Of a stretch of DNA of 21,585 bases, positions 13,306-21,585 are shown one piece after another. The position numbers and the translations under genes were made by a program. The notes under the pieces are model-generated. The model worked only from the letters and a program-made list of their open reading frames with translations. It was not told where the DNA came from and searched no databases. The stretch comes from a virus: positions 1 through 21,585 of the IMG/VR virus record IMGVR_UViG_3300033153_005038; one strand, 5' to 3'. Every line of letters begins with the position of its first letter. Positions within the stretch are counted from its first letter, which is position 1.

Positions 13306-14034
13306 ATGGATTCATTATCAAGCACATCAAATAAGTCAGCAATTCAAAAACGAATATCTAATTTTTTAACTGCTGCAAAGAAAGTTGAATCTTTAGGAGC
13401 TTGTCAAATTCTTGAAAAACCGGAGATTAGTGAGAATTGGTTAGTTACTTCAGATGGAACTTTTATTCGTAAAATCTGTGGACATCGGTCTTCTAAAGGA
13501 CCATGTTTATTATTTCCAGGTTGGGGAACAAATCATATTGGTAAGGGGAAATGTCGACATCATGGTAGAAGTCTTTTATATAATCCACAATTAAATGCTC
13601 TTGAAGGGATTCCAGTTAGATTTGGAGAATTATTAGCGCATGTTGATAACGTTGAAGAAGGAACTTTACTTAATGTAGATCATGAAATTAAATTTCTTTA
13701 TGCATTACAGCAATATGTCTTAACAATGGCTACAGACTTGAATTTACAGCAGGTTGATGCATTACAAGAATTAACAATGAATATAGTTAAAACTAAGTCC
13801 ATTAAGAATAAGATTCAGAAGGAAATGAGATTAGATGCTTCAGCAGTAAAAGATTTTGTTAAAAATATTTTCGATATTGTTGTTCAAACAGTACCAGGCC
13901 CAGAAGCACAACGTATATTAAATGATATTATGAATAAGGTTATTGTTCCATATAAGAATAAACAAAGAATAACCAATGCACGTTATGATTTTGAGGAGAC
14001 TATTAAGAAAACTCTTGAAAAGGCGAAATCATGA
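13306..14034 (+). CDS. terS: Small terminase-like protein with Cys/His motif
   Basis: ATG 13306 follows AACAAAAGGAAAGT. Residues 56-88 carry ICGHRSSKGPC, then PGWGTNHIGKGKC and RHHG. This matches the C...C-x(n)-G-T-x-H-x-G-x-G-x-C-x-x-H-G motif found in phage proteins encoded just before the large terminase and usually annotated as small subunits; the final Gly of the common HGG is Arg here. The C-terminal half is helical and could oligomerise. Small terminases recognise the genome end and regulate the motor. Its stop overlaps the ATPase gene (ATGA at 14031-14034), which supports this assignment. A function outside packaging cannot be excluded. Confidence 0.7.
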   Translation: MDSLSSTSNKSAIQKRISNFLTAAKKVESLGACQILEKPEISENWLVTSDGTFIRKICGHRSSKGPCLLFPGWGTNHIGKGKCRHHGRSLLYNPQLNALEGIPVRFGELLAHVDNVEEGTLLNVDHEIKFLYALQQYVLTMATDLNLQQVDALQELTMNIVKTKSIKNKIQKEMRLDASAVKDFVKNIFDIVVQTVPGPEAQRILNDIMNKVIVPYKNKQRITNARYDFEETIKKTLEKAKS

Positions 14035-15113
14035 GTGACTTTATAAATGACCAAAATTCTGCTGATTCATTGATGCGGTATGCTGAAAACACTCTTAAAG
14101 AAATGCAAAAAAAGCAAACTGGTTCGAGTTCTGAATGGACAGAGGGTGAGGCTGCTGCTCAATCAAGAGTGGATATTGAAACTTTAATAAGAGACCCGTT
14201 TTATTTAGGTCTTGGAGATAAAGTATATCAAGGAGTTTTAGAAGATATTGTAGAATTATTTGAAGAACGTAAAAAACGACAAGTAAACCTTGCTATTTTT
14301 ATGGAGGGAATCGGAGCTGGGAAAACTTTAAAGGCATCAGTTATCCAGTGGTTACTGTGGTTTGAACTCACTTGTCTATGGCCAAATCCTCAAGACTATT
14401 TTGATTTAGTTCCAAATTCAGTAATTGCTCTTATTAATCTTAATAGGACAGAAAAACAATCTAAGAAGGTAACATTTGCTGAGGTTTATCCAAGGTTTCA
14501 ATGTCCTTTTAATATGCAATACTTTCCCCCTTCTGATAAATATACTACTGAAATACGAATTACAAGAAATAACACAACTGTTTTTCCTGGTACATCTTCT
14601 GCCCTCTCGGCCTTAGGATATAATTTATATGGTGGAACAATTGATGAGGCAGCTTTTTTAGAGGTCATTGATGATTCTACAAAAACTTATGATGGAAAGT
14701 TTGATGCAGCGGAGGAGATGTACCATGCTATTACTAATAGAATGATATCAAGATTTTTAAGAGAAGGAAAATTGCCTGGTTTATTGAGTATGATTTCTTC
14801 ATCTAATTTTCCTGATGATTTTATGCATAAACAGATTGAATATGCTGCTAGGGTTGAAGAAGAATCAGAAAAGAATGGGACTCTAAATGATTCTAATATA
14901 TTTTGGAGAAGAAGATCCACTTGGGAAGCTAAGGGACCTAAATTTTTTCCTGAAAATGAGTTCTTTTATATTGATACTGAAAATGCTGAAATTTTAGAAC
15001 ATTGGAAAGTGAAAGAGTTCTTAGATTCAATAAAAGATCATTATTTTCCATTGAAAATAGACCCAGAGACATTAATTAATCTTGCTCAATTTATGTATAA
15101 GGAGGTGGCGTAA
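14031..15113 (+). CDS. terL: Large terminase, ATPase domain only
   Basis: ATG 14031 overlaps the small terminase stop. The 360-residue protein has a Walker A-like loop GIGAGKT (residues 93-99), a Walker B with catalytic acid, GGTIDEAAF (201-209, D205-E206), and a coupling motif SMISSSNFPDDF (253-264). It then reads STWEAKGPKFF (296-306), as in large terminases. No RNase H-like nuclease follows in the frame; it stops after about 50 more residues. The nuclease is encoded separately from 15885. The protein should power DNA translocation into the prohead and needs the nuclease to cut DNA. The stop (TAA 15111-15113) overlaps the next start. Confidence 0.85.
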   Translation: MSDFINDQNSADSLMRYAENTLKEMQKKQTGSSSEWTEGEAAAQSRVDIETLIRDPFYLGLGDKVYQGVLEDIVELFEERKKRQVNLAIFMEGIGAGKTLKASVIQWLLWFELTCLWPNPQDYFDLVPNSVIALINLNRTEKQSKKVTFAEVYPRFQCPFNMQYFPPSDKYTTEIRITRNNTTVFPGTSSALSALGYNLYGGTIDEAAFLEVIDDSTKTYDGKFDAAEEMYHAITNRMISRFLREGKLPGLLSMISSSNFPDDFMHKQIEYAARVEEESEKNGTLNDSNIFWRRRSTWEAKGPKFFPENEFFYIDTENAEILEHWKVKEFLDSIKDHYFPLKIDPETLINLAQFMYKEVA

Positions 15114-15253
15114 TGCCAGTTAAAAAATCAGGTGGTGGTTATAAATGGGGTAGTAAAGGTAAAGTTTATAAAGGTAAAGACGCAAAAAAGAAAGCAGCAG
15201 CACAAGGACGGGCTGCTCATGCTTCAGGTTATAGGAGTACAAAAAAGAAGTGA
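15113..15253 (+). CDS. Small basic phage protein of the GGYxWGxxGKVY family
   Basis: ATG 15113 overlaps the terminase stop (TAATG) and has AAGGAGG at 15099-15105. The 46-residue product starts MPVKKSGGGYKWGSKGKVY and ends QGRAAHASGYRSTKKK. It closely resembles a short, basic protein common in phages (K-x-G-G-Y-x-W-G-x-x-G-K-x-Y ... G-R-A-x-x-A-S-G-Y). Such genes often sit near terminase and portal genes. Function unknown; the basic, Gly-rich composition suggests nucleic acid or virion binding. Confidence 0.75.
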   Translation: MPVKKSGGGYKWGSKGKVYKGKDAKKKAAAQGRAAHASGYRSTKKK

Positions 15254-15372
15254 TTGATGCGATATTTGGATTTTTTGTGGAATATGAAAATGCGTTTCAA
15301 TGGGCAGCTATTATAATAATTTATATTGTGCTGCTTATAAGATGGAGTTACTATAATAATATGGGTAGGTAA
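15250..15372 (+). CDS. 40-residue membrane microprotein with GTG start
   Basis: GTG 15250 overlaps the previous TGA (GTGA); the frame ends at TAA 15370-15372, just before the exonuclease gene. The product has an acidic N-terminal part and one strongly hydrophobic helix (WAAIIIIYIVLLIRW, residues 18-32). The ribosome site is weak, so the start rests on the overlap and on an otherwise empty gap. Confidence 0.45.
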   Translation: MIDAIFGFFVEYENAFQWAAIIIIYIVLLIRWSYYNNMGR

Positions 15373-15375
15373 AAT

Positions 15376-15885
15376 ATGATTTATTGGCAAATAGTTGATT
15401 TAGAAACAACAGGATTAAGTCCTAATAATGAAGAAATTGCTGAGTTGGCTTTAATTACTTGTGTGAATACGCAAATAATTGGTATCCATCATCAATTTTA
15501 TCAGATAAGTAAAATGGGTGAAAAGGCAGGACAAGTAAATGGATTATCAATTAAACAATTGGATGGTTGGATTAGGTTTTCTTCAAATGAAAATCTAACA
15601 TTATTAAGAAGTTTAATAAAGCATCCTCTTTTTGCTCATAATGCTCCTTTTGATGCAGGTTTTTTAATTGCTCAAAACGTTATAAAAGATAGTTATCCGG
15701 TTATTGATACTGTTAAACTTTGTAAAAAGAGTAATAAAAAATTGGAAAATAACAAATTACAAACTTGGGTAAATCATTATAAATTATCAAACGGAGTTGC
15801 GCATACAGCACTGAACGATGCATTTAGTCTATATAGATTAATTGTGTTAATGGGATGGCAAATATATGCAAAGGTTGGGGTATAA
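15376..15885 (+). CDS. DEDDh 3'-5' exonuclease (DnaQ-like)
   Basis: The 169-residue protein has all three exonuclease motifs: Exo I VDLETTG (D8, E10), Exo II AHNAPFDAGFL (D93) and Exo III HTALNDA (H143, D148). This is the DEDDh type, which uses two metal ions to remove 3' nucleotides from DNA or RNA. No polymerase or other domain is fused. It lies inside the packaging operon between the terminase halves, and its stop overlaps the nuclease start (TAATG at 15883-15887). It may trim DNA ends or act in replication or nucleotide scavenging; the location alone does not decide this. Confidence 0.85.
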   Translation: MIYWQIVDLETTGLSPNNEEIAELALITCVNTQIIGIHHQFYQISKMGEKAGQVNGLSIKQLDGWIRFSSNENLTLLRSLIKHPLFAHNAPFDAGFLIAQNVIKDSYPVIDTVKLCKKSNKKLENNKLQTWVNHYKLSNGVAHTALNDAFSLYRLIVLMGWQIYAKVGV

Positions 15886-16880
15886 TGATAATTAAAGTTC
15901 CATTATCATTAATGTCTGCTGCAAAAGGTGATATAGAGAACTTCATCCGTGACATCGCAAACGTAACAGAAACAGGAACACGCCCTTTTATACGAAGGCG
16001 AAAAAAGATTCGCCAATCTATTAAAGAATATTTAAACCCATTCAATCCCTTAACTAGAACTTTTGATGCGGATTATAGATGTCAAGATAATTACTTACGT
16101 TACCTACATATAGATCTTGCACATACACGAGATGCAGTGGGTATTGGTTGTTCGCATGTCCCAAGATTTGTTGAGCGTGAAGAATTAGATACTTTTACTA
16201 AAGAAATACAAAGAGTAATGCTTCCTATAATAAAGGTTGATTTTTGGGGTAAAATTCTTGCATCGAAAAGAGAAGAAATAATTTTAAGTGATATTAGAGA
16301 TATTGTTTATGACCTATCCCGCAGAGGGTTTTATTTTGGATTGATTACTTTTGACAGGTTTCAGTCAATTGAATCAGTTCAGACTTTAAGACGTTATGGT
16401 TATATAGCAGGTCATCATTCTGTTGACAGGACTTCAAGTTCACTTATATTAGATATTGAAGGTAAAATAGATATAGGATATTCAAAAGTTTCAACTGAAG
16501 GTAATTATAATGCTACTCATGTTGCTTTAAGAGATGTTTTATATGATGATAGACTTGAAGTTCCAAAGTCAACTAATCATTATGAAACAGATTGGTTTGT
16601 TTATGAATCAGAGAATGCTCAATATACAAAGGCGGGTAAAATTGATCATCCCCCTACTGGGTCTATTGATGTCGAGCAAGGAGTTGCTGCATCGGTATTT
16701 CACGCTATTAACAATGAACACATGATGGTTGAAACAGAAGCTGAACGGTCAAGACGTGAAGTAGAGGATTCATTTTATGTCACCGCCGAAGAAAATATTG
16801 ATAAAATACTATTAACAAATAAATTAGAAGAAATTGAATTGCCCCGAGATCCTCGCAGTATTGAAGGGGACTATTTTTAA
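15885..16880 (+). CDS. terL: Large terminase, nuclease domain only
   Basis: ATG 15885 overlaps the exonuclease stop. The 331-residue protein starts MIIKVPLSLM...IENFIRDIANV, which fits the VP...F...LRDIAG segment that normally joins the ATPase to the nuclease. It carries the RNase H-like acidic residues D77 (HIDLAHTRDAVGIG), D157 (LITFDRFQS) and D262 (HPPTGSIDVEQGVAASV). These are expected to bind metal and cut the concatemer at packaging start and end. No Walker motifs are present. With the ATPase it adds to about 690 residues, near a full large terminase. The proteins presumably assemble non-covalently. The portal gene follows after 12 bases. Confidence 0.85.
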   Translation: MIIKVPLSLMSAAKGDIENFIRDIANVTETGTRPFIRRRKKIRQSIKEYLNPFNPLTRTFDADYRCQDNYLRYLHIDLAHTRDAVGIGCSHVPRFVEREELDTFTKEIQRVMLPIIKVDFWGKILASKREEIILSDIRDIVYDLSRRGFYFGLITFDRFQSIESVQTLRRYGYIAGHHSVDRTSSSLILDIEGKIDIGYSKVSTEGNYNATHVALRDVLYDDRLEVPKSTNHYETDWFVYESENAQYTKAGKIDHPPTGSIDVEQGVAASVFHAINNEHMMVETEAERSRREVEDSFYVTAEENIDKILLTNKLEEIELPRDPRSIEGDYF

Positions 16881-16892
16881 AGGATTAATAAA

Positions 16893-18605
16893 ATGAATAA
16901 AATTTTAGAATTTTTTGGTGATTTAAAATTAGTTCGTAAAAATAAAGTAGATGCTCAAATCCAAACGGCCATAGATGATGCAAATGGAGAACTTATTGAG
17001 AAAATAAGAGGTCTTACAGAGTTTGAGAGTTATTTTGGGAGAGACTCTGCTGAATTCTTTTCAGTTAAAGAATCTCTTTTTAATGAAGTATTTGCTAAAA
17101 AGAAAATTGAAAATCCTGAAGTTAGAAACATTTTACTAAATGCTTTTGATAACGTACCCTCCGTCGATCTATCTTTTGAAGAACTCTATTTAATACAAGA
17201 TGCTATTTGGACGAAATACGGGTCAGACCCGCTTATTCAAGGAGCAGTTGATAATTATACAGATTATGTTATTGGAGGTGGAGTTGCTATCTCAACCCCT
17301 GTTGATGATGTAAATAAAGTCTTGGAAGATTTTGAAAGAAGAAATCAATGGTTTTCTCGCCAACAAGCAATTGTTAAAAATAGTTTTATAGATGGAGAAC
17401 ATTTTACTTTATTATATACAAATGCAAATGGAGATGTTTATGTAAGGAAATGTCATCCAAAATCAATTGAGACAATGGAAACTGCTAAAACTGATTATGA
17501 GGTTTTGTTTTCTATTCTTAGACGTTTGTATATGTATGATGACCAAGGAGGAACAACCTATAGTGATGCTAGACAATATATTAAAACCTTAGAATATGAT
17601 GATTTACAGAATGCAGGTTTAAATTATAATAGATCTATACATACTAAAGACTTTATACAGAATGTGGTTGTTTCTTTTTTGAAGTTAAATGATTCTGATA
17701 AACTTAGAGGGTTGCCACCCTTAAAAAGAGTTTTAAAATGGTCTAAGCTTTATGAAAATTTTATAATGGATAGAATGGTTTTAAATCATGAAAGAGCAAA
17801 AGTTGTTTGGATAAAAACTTATGGAATGAAACCTCGTGATCCTCTTCCAAATAAGTCTTATAAGTCTCCTCCTCAAGGTTCAATGATGATTGAGAAAGAC
17901 GGGATTAAGTACAGAACTGAAAAACCTAATTTAGATTCTTCAGAGGCAAAAGAAGATGGGTTAGGATTGTTGTATTATATTGCTACTTCAATAAGGATGC
18001 CTATTCATATTCTCAATCAAAGGACGGATCAACAAGTTTATGCGTCAATCCGAAAAGCAGATACACCATTTCAGAATATGGTTGAGTCTGCTCAGTATAT
18101 GTATGCAGAACATTTTGAAGGGATTTATCGACATCAAATAAAAGAAAAGGTAAAAAGAGGAGATTTAAAGAAAAAATATGAATACTCTTCTTATGCTGAA
18201 GATGCAGTAATGACTGCTGTTAAACAAATAAATAAGGGTGTTTTAGACGAAAGACCTGTTGAAGAAATAAGAAATGAAGTAAAGAAAACATTAGAAGATG
18301 GTAAATTTAAAGTCATAACTCCTACAGAAAATCTTCCTATTAGTCAAGATTTCCCACAAATGATTCTTCAAGATCCTAAAGAAATGGCAGAAGTCCTTAA
18401 ATTACATAAAGAGGTTGGTCTTGCATCTATTGCCACTTTATCAGGAAAAGCTGGTTATACTTGGAAGAAAGAATTTCCTAAGATTATGGCAGAATTTGCA
18501 ATTAACCTTGAGAAGAAAAGAGAAGAACAAGAAATTATTACTGAAGGAAAAGAAAACGAAATAAAGAAAGAAGATAAAGTTAAGAAAAAAGAAGATAAGA
18601 AGTAA
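16893..18605 (+). CDS. Portal protein
   Basis: ATG 16893 follows TTTAAAGGATTAATAA. The 570-residue protein has the portal pattern: an N-terminal helical part, GSDPLIQGAVDNYTDYVIGGG (residues 110-130), IVKNSFIDGEHFTLLY (160-175) and LRGLPPLKRVLKWSKLYENF (271-290). A long C-terminal helical part follows, with a final Lys/Glu-rich tail (KEDKVKKKEDKK). Portals form a 12-subunit ring at one capsid vertex, dock the terminase and later join the tail. Length and gene order are typical. It has no insertion or signal peptide. Confidence 0.85.
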   Translation: MNKILEFFGDLKLVRKNKVDAQIQTAIDDANGELIEKIRGLTEFESYFGRDSAEFFSVKESLFNEVFAKKKIENPEVRNILLNAFDNVPSVDLSFEELYLIQDAIWTKYGSDPLIQGAVDNYTDYVIGGGVAISTPVDDVNKVLEDFERRNQWFSRQQAIVKNSFIDGEHFTLLYTNANGDVYVRKCHPKSIETMETAKTDYEVLFSILRRLYMYDDQGGTTYSDARQYIKTLEYDDLQNAGLNYNRSIHTKDFIQNVVVSFLKLNDSDKLRGLPPLKRVLKWSKLYENFIMDRMVLNHERAKVVWIKTYGMKPRDPLPNKSYKSPPQGSMMIEKDGIKYRTEKPNLDSSEAKEDGLGLLYYIATSIRMPIHILNQRTDQQVYASIRKADTPFQNMVESAQYMYAEHFEGIYRHQIKEKVKRGDLKKKYEYSSYAEDAVMTAVKQINKGVLDERPVEEIRNEVKKTLEDGKFKVITPTENLPISQDFPQMILQDPKEMAEVLKLHKEVGLASIATLSGKAGYTWKKEFPKIMAEFAINLEKKREEQEIITEGKENEIKKEDKVKKKEDKK

Positions 18606-20640: not shown

Positions 20641-20676
20641 AATAATCATTTATTCATCCTAATGAAAGGAGATACA

Positions 20677-21585
20677 ATGAGTCTCAAAACTAAGAAAGGC
20701 ATACGCCTTGATATTGGGTGTGGGAATAGGAAAACTCCGGGATTCACCGGTATGGATGTGCAAAAGTTGAAAGGCGTAGACATCGTTCATGACCTTCAAA
20801 CTTTCCCTTACCCTTTAGAAGATGAGTCTTGTTCTAAAATTATTGGTTCTCATATTTTTGAACATATTAACCCTGCTGATAGTGGAGTTATCAAATTTAT
20901 GGATGAGCTTTGGCGAATAATGGAATTTGGAGGTCAACTTGCTTTTGCTTATCCTTATGGAGTAAATCAAGGTTTTCAGCAAGATCCTACACATGTTAAT
21001 CCATCTAATCAATCGACTTGGAAATATTTTGATCCTGGTTATAATTTATATGACCAGTATAGTCCTAAGCCTTGGTATATAGAAACCAATCTTTGGCAAG
21101 AGACTGGTCAAGGTGAGGTTTTATTAACTAAGATTACTAAAGAGGCAGGTAGAGAAAGAAAGAAATTGAGAAATAAGTTTCTTCGTGAAGAGAATAAAGC
21201 TAGAAAAAGGTCTCAACAAAGACAAGCAAAAACCAGGGCTAAAGCTTTAAGGGTCGACCGACTCATTAAACAAGGAACTATAAAGAAAGCATCTAATAAA
21301 GAAAATCGTGAAGACTGGATTTCTGGCATTGTTGAGAATAGAGAAAAGGTCATGCATCGTTTGATGTATGGTGTTCCTATGACTGGGATTATACGTTCTG
21401 AATGGGCTTTTGGAAGATTTAATCAAGTAGTTCCCTGTAACTGGTCTAAGGTTGATATTCATCAATGGTTAGATCAGTGGAGTCCATTGAATTTTACTGT
21501 TGCTGATGCTCGTAATATTATTGCTACTGCAGCCGTAGATCAGGATTTTGAATGGTTATTTTTTCATGATCATGATGTCATTCTT
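20677..21585 (+). CDS. Methyltransferase-glycosyltransferase fusion (3' truncated)
   Basis: ATG 20677 follows AATGAAAGGAGATACA. The open frame runs off the window after 303 residues. Residues 9-120 are a class I SAM-dependent methyltransferase: RLDIGCGNRKTPGFTGMDV (SAM loop and acidic residue) and then CSKIIGSHIFEHI. A basic, coiled-coil-like linker (about 160-210, many Arg/Lys/Glu) follows. From about 229 a GT-A glycosyltransferase domain starts: YGVPMTGIIRSEWAF, VADARNIIATAAV and EWLFFHDHDVIL, where D298-H-D300 is the likely metal-binding DxD. It may modify virion proteins, host surface glycans or phage DNA-linked sugars. The rest of the GT domain is outside the window. Confidence 0.75.
   Translation, partial: MSLKTKKGIRLDIGCGNRKTPGFTGMDVQKLKGVDIVHDLQTFPYPLEDESCSKIIGSHIFEHINPADSGVIKFMDELWRIMEFGGQLAFAYPYGVNQGFQQDPTHVNPSNQSTWKYFDPGYNLYDQYSPKPWYIETNLWQETGQGEVLLTKITKEAGRERKKLRNKFLREENKARKRSQQRQAKTRAKALRVDRLIKQGTIKKASNKENREDWISGIVENREKVMHRLMYGVPMTGIIRSEWAFGRFNQVVPCNWSKVDIHQWLDQWSPLNFTVADARNIIATAAVDQDFEWLFFHDHDVIL

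Follow-up and report, generated by a model that had tools for sequence, protein, structure and literature searches.

A phage large terminase encoded as separate ATPase and nuclease genes

Results and discussion

A virus record of IMG/VR (IMGVR_UViG_3300033153_005038; 21,585 bases, classed as linear and probably a fragment), analysed here over its whole length and called the window below, was found to carry its large terminase (TerL) in two separate open reading frames (ORFs). The first (14031-15113, 360 amino acids (aa)) is the ATPase chain and the second (15885-16880, 331 aa) the nuclease chain; both lie on the + strand, about 770 nucleotides apart, and are not encoded as one polypeptide. Our results make it highly probable that they constitute a natural two-polypeptide large terminase, which would stem from one ancient gene fission and reassemble non-covalently.

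The two chains

The initial annotation, made from the letters of the window, had proposed an ATPase gene ending before any nuclease and, from position 15885, a nuclease gene opening with the VP...RDIA segment and carrying D77, D157 and D262; both proposals were borne out. The ATPase ORF displayed the Walker A motif GIGAGKT (residues 93-99, positions 14307-14327) and the Walker B acidic pair D205/E206 (14643-14648). It matched 275 records of isolated phages in tblastn searches (best E-value 4e-27), and its AlphaFold2 (AF2) model (predicted local distance difference test, pLDDT, of 89) aligned to residues 80-346 of T4 gp17 and to the P74-26 ATPase (VIA Z 16.7). With Walker A, Walker B/catalytic acid and TerL fold all present, the ORF was confirmed as a TerL ATPase without nuclease. 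Its C-terminal tail (residues 311-360) is predicted to be folded (pLDDT 81-84); past residue 310 constraint was weaker, yet the tail could be aligned in four lineages (see below), with a similar end.

The nuclease ORF, whose N-terminus reads MIIKVP (an in-frame ATG occurs also at 15855), matched 337 isolate records by tblastn (best E-value 6e-19 among the matches listed). Its AF2 model (pLDDT 88) aligned to the G20c TerL nuclease (VIA Z 16.8) and to residues 295 to 561 of T4 gp17 (Z 15.3). The catalytic acids D77 (16113-16115), D157 (16353-16355) and D262 (16668-16670) were among only five invariant columns in an alignment of 73 sequences. RNase H fold and three catalytic acids being present, the ORF was confirmed as the RNase H-fold nuclease matching the TerL ATPase chain of the window. 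An insert at residues 186-210 (16440-16514), with conserved LGYSKKSTEGNYNA, was kept throughout the clade displaying the split and was absent from single-chain TerLs in the alignments.

Neither TerL half is detectable by standard profiles, which is a warning for annotation. Searches with both ORFs against Pfam, NCBIfam and PDB sequences gave no useful match (in Pfam none for either), and PHROGs returned a weak TerL match for the ATPase only. Under phage annotation guidelines, the ATPase and nuclease domains of TerL may be named separately.

Single-chain relatives and the break point

Both halves of the window matched the same isolate TerLs, in which they are adjacent within one ORF. The families matched by both were the Vibrio SIO-2/Ares1 type and those of Rhizobium, Gordonia, Streptomyces, Stenotrophomonas, Maribacter and others. 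All isolate records that were opened had TerL as a single gene, and a further Gordonia match likewise had only one terminase gene. The TerLs of Vibrio phages SIO-2, Ares1 and Vpas_PP24 and of Rhizobium phage RHph_TM16 displayed homologous halves in identical motif order, with about 25-34% identity. Yet these are single ORFs (619-673 aa in those checked), uninterrupted by an exonuclease homologue or any other gene.

In alignments of the window chains with full-length TerLs, a short linker separated the point where the ATPase match ends from the nuclease start. The latter coincided with the 'VP.ey..F..di...RDIAG' segment, which in single-chain TerLs follows on from the ATPase part. In the window this segment (VP...FIRDIA, nuclease residues 6-25, positions 15900-15959, from a MAFFT alignment with full-length TerLs) is predicted to form two short helices (H7-15 and H17-24). 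Structure alignments to the T4 gp17, P74-26 and G20c domains place the break at the ATPase-nuclease hinge, so that the nuclease chain bears a two-helix segment from just ahead of the nuclease domain. The break was thereby confirmed to fall just before VP...RDIA, adjacent to the hinge between the two domains.

Gordonia phages GordTnk2, GMA3 and Gmala1 were considered as split-TerL candidates and rejected, being single ORFs with an insert. Their TerLs are long (1011-1048 aa with an extra block; L001:2013-5048, L002:1740-4886 and L185:2022-5141); that of Gmala1 shows a LAGLIDADG match, an intein being likely, and this copy is annotated as DarB-like antirestriction. Another single-chain relative, L036:1060-6993, is a 1978-aa ORF in which intein-splicing and LAGLIDADG domains were each matched twice, probably corresponding to two inteins.

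Conservation of the split

Relatives were retrieved from IMG/VR with alignment-based profiles; single-sequence scans of IMG/VR had missed all of them. The search for phages of the same gene order recovered six other contigs with the split arrangement (L011, L012, L091, L092, L093 and L182), and a portal-based scan of IMG/VR returned the same contig set only. Together with the window they represent four lineages, nuclease identity to the window being 58% for L011/L012, 51% for L091/L092/L093 and 54% for L182. The order ATPase, exonuclease, nuclease, portal is common to the split contigs, L012 being cut inside the exonuclease with its ATPase outside the sequence. In contrast to this one split clade, TerL was a single ORF in 149 other loci carrying both halves (isolates included, and some loci overlapping on the same contig). 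The four split lineages were monophyletic (Shimodaira-Hasegawa-like approximate likelihood ratio test, SH-aLRT, 99), and a single change is needed to account for them. These data speak for a split conserved across one clade, as opposed to faulty assembly or gene decay, and they uphold the initial view that large terminases are normally one chain and that the arrangement of the window is stable and not a frameshift.

A full-length TerL elsewhere in the genome, against which that view had been set, did not appear in the records. Profiles of each half located a single ATPase locus and a single nuclease locus in every record, among them a 79.9-kb relative, in which this test is strongest, the window being a fragment. 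In L011 the ATPase appeared as two pieces because an intein interrupts its single ORF.

Genes between the two halves

Three genes lie between the halves in the window, all on the + strand. A 46-aa basic protein (15113-15253; phrog_31267, E-value 2e-5), whose start overlaps the ATPase stop, is followed by a 40-aa hydrophobic ORF with a GTG start (15250-15372), recognised as an ORF only and matching nothing in a family search, and by a DEDDh 3'-5' exonuclease of 169 aa (15376-15885; DnaQ/PolC-exo like; PF00929, E-value 3.5e-17, and phrog_192, E-value 3e-22). The last displays the ExoI DxE, ExoII and ExoIII H-x4-D motifs, and its residues D8, E10, H143 and D148 were invariant in three lineages. 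It is the sole constant gene between the halves, present in all four split lineages. Before it, the 46-aa gene was encountered in the window and L011 (69% identical, same place). The space between exonuclease and nuclease holds a LAGLIDADG endonuclease in L011/L012 and an 80-aa ORF in L182, and the window has no gene there. A DUF4031 gene occupies this place in L092 (L092:7697-7978).

The exonuclease may be more than cargo. It could be a third part of the motor, working with the packaging complex (e.g. trimming or proofreading DNA ends) and constituting the reason why the split is kept. In favour of such a role, each of the four lineages has the exonuclease between the halves, catalytic residues intact, and no homologue was found in the flanks of single-chain TerL loci. 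Yet its closest profiles are those of replication exonucleases, it is less conserved than both TerL chains (41-56% versus 51-69%) and co-localisation is no proof of interaction, and we consider this role rather unlikely. More doubtful still is a motor built from at least three different chains, with stand-alone ATPase, RNase H nuclease and DEDDh exonuclease in one complex. If it were true, translocation would take place without a covalent ATPase-nuclease link, and the processing of DNA ends during packaging would fall to the exonuclease as a new component.

Separate translation of the chains

The halves might also be exons of one TerL, the exonuclease and small genes belonging to a group I or II intron that is spliced from the mRNA. 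Such cases exist: terL of ICP1 appears split yet is spliced (PMC10448857), and the TerL of Campylobacter phage IBB_35 reportedly contains both an intron and an intein (PMC3322345). There too, the coding sequence is interrupted and mobile endonucleases lie nearby, and homing endonucleases, which are common intron guests, are present in the split clade. However, the interruptions in ICP1 and IBB_35 are introns or inteins removed by splicing, and none such was found in the window. Rfam intron searches, at gathering and relaxed thresholds, gave none at E-values up to 10 in 14000-16900, nor any at E-values up to 1 in L011, L012 and L092. Furthermore, the interval between the halves is fully coding and full of overlapping ORFs, and its content varies by lineage while both termini are fixed. 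The nuclease has its own start in each lineage, with an upstream purine motif or a start/stop overlap; in L092 its frame opens two codons before the ATG and therefore no upstream read-in is possible. Nor is the exonuclease a known intron guest. Taken with the intron searches, this makes splicing of the mRNA very improbable.

Joining of the halves at the protein level by a split intein (a 'fractured gene') deserves even less credit. Inteins do occur in the ATPase P-loop of L011 and L182, but these are contiguous and lie at a different site of the chain. No intein blocks are present in the tail of ~50 aa that closes the ATPase, MII.VP is already the very start of the nuclease, so that no C-intein precedes it, and a Pfam scan of the window proteins found no intein domain. 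The initial statement that neither intron nor intein is apparent thus still holds. That the split gene is defective or was misassembled is hardly worth entertaining. Single-chain TerL is the rule and the window a fragment, yet break point, catalytic residues and order of genes agree among seven contigs of four lineages, with one TerL per record.

As the single TerL locus is accompanied by a coding interval without intron or intein and by purifying selection, separate translation of ATPase and nuclease is well supported on sequence grounds. The packaging operon lies on the + strand with neighbouring ORFs overlapping or nearly abutting, and start/stop overlaps at 15113, 15250-15253 and 15885 tie it together, in agreement with the initial annotation.

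Proposed two-chain motor

We propose that the ATPase and nuclease chains are translated separately from this tightly packed operon, with the exonuclease gene between them, and that they would re-associate non-covalently, the nuclease domain lying under the ATPase ring as in an ordinary TerL. The two-helix segment of the nuclease and the folded C-terminal tail of the ATPase could together replace the covalent hinge. Alternatively, the ATPase chain alone might translocate, the nuclease being used only for cutting. Re-association of the two chains in the packaging motor is what we infer.

Several observations weigh against this two-chain enzyme. Function in trans is not obvious because T4 gp17 split at its linker was reported to keep ATPase and nuclease activity and to lose translocation (PMC3012670, PMC9958956); phages of the split clade must therefore have compensated, or translocate by the ATPase chain alone. 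Purifying selection at the nuclease N-terminus, as seen in ratios of nonsynonymous to synonymous changes (pN/pS 0.31-0.47 for pairs involving the window), speaks for the two-chain enzyme, but synonymous sites were near saturation, and by the same measure some comparisons of the ATPase tail involving L182 showed no constraint. Likewise, the nuclease of L011/L012 has no ATG, GTG or TTG near its start, only an ATT with AAGGA upstream.

It is also the reported loss of translocation in linker-split T4 gp17 that makes a natural split TerL testable and interesting. Packaging models link the ATPase 'engine' to the nuclease/translocation domain by a hinge within one chain. A split maintained across four diverged lineages implies that non-covalent coupling is possible, or that the nuclease domain is dispensable for translocation there. 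In their predicted folds, both window chains match the two domains of the T4 gp17, P74-26 and HK97 TerL structures (Z about 15-17), in which, unlike in the window, the hinge is covalent.

Comparison with other divided genes

Functional split genes for ribonucleotide reductase, DNA polymerase and topoisomerase are known in phages; here gene fission concerns TerL, which extends genes-in-pieces to a core virion-assembly gene. In a literature search of incomplete coverage, no description of a two-gene or split TerL was found. The genes-in-pieces of T4-type phages (Aeh1 nrdA/mobE, gene 43A/43B, T4 topoisomerase gene 60/mobA) also distribute an essential enzyme over two ORFs; some relatives have a homing endonuclease at the split site, and the halves of Aeh1 NrdA and of gene 43A/43B were shown to work together (PMC2988022). 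They differ from the split clade in that other enzymes are concerned, that the constant gene here is a DEDDh exonuclease and that an endonuclease was encountered in only one of the four split-TerL lineages. A constant guest gene at the fission of a known enzyme is unusual.

Mycobacteriophage cluster C1 may provide another divided TerL, as the 'terminase-like' protein Pham3880 reportedly has only about 75 aa of ATPase domain, with no P-loop (PMC5050341). Its break would fall inside the ATPase domain, unlike the hinge break in the window.

Homing elements and origin of the split

A free-standing LAGLIDADG endonuclease gene is located exactly at the nuclease start in L011 (L011:2854-3501) and L012 (L012:146-793), where it apparently takes over the nuclease ATG. 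A LAGLIDADG intein was found in the ATPase Walker A motif (GIG / C...HN / SGKTT) of L011 (L011:83-2176) and L182 (L182:702-3035), i.e. in two of the four lineages, the window and L092 being without it. The clade is therefore a target of homing elements at TerL.

The distribution, with single-chain relatives on one side and a clade split at one site on the other, is that of genes-in-pieces. The ancestor would have been a single-chain TerL of the SIO-2/Ares1/RHph_TM16 type, broken once, just before VP...RDIA. With less confidence, fission may have come about when a homing-endonuclease gene, or cargo of another kind, was inserted, the exonuclease being acquired at the same site. Fission driven by a homing endonuclease, followed by loss of the endonuclease, is plausible but unproven: such a gene is present at the split site in L011/L012 only and absent from the window, L092 and L182. 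It is equally possible that the homing endonuclease gene entered an already split TerL gene. No insertion footprint was recognised, since the repeats on either side of the interval, whether direct or inverted, were short and of the kind expected by chance.

Neighbouring genes

A conserved gene of 242 aa lies upstream of the ATPase (13306-14034, + strand) and is a candidate small terminase (TerS); in L092/L093 a homologue of 43% identity precedes the ATPase. The TerS profile match of the window gene was weak (phrog_9231, E-value 0.27). The product carries a CGHR...C..HG motif, and the gene occupies the position where a small terminase would be. The portal protein gene (16893-18605, + strand; phrog_10963, E-value 9e-15) is directly downstream of the nuclease and adjoins it in all split contigs. 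A scan of GTDB genomes for a prophage or host of the split-clade phages found none. Further downstream in the window, a methyltransferase-like ORF (20662-21585; phrog_6636, E-value 8e-12) runs off the contig end.

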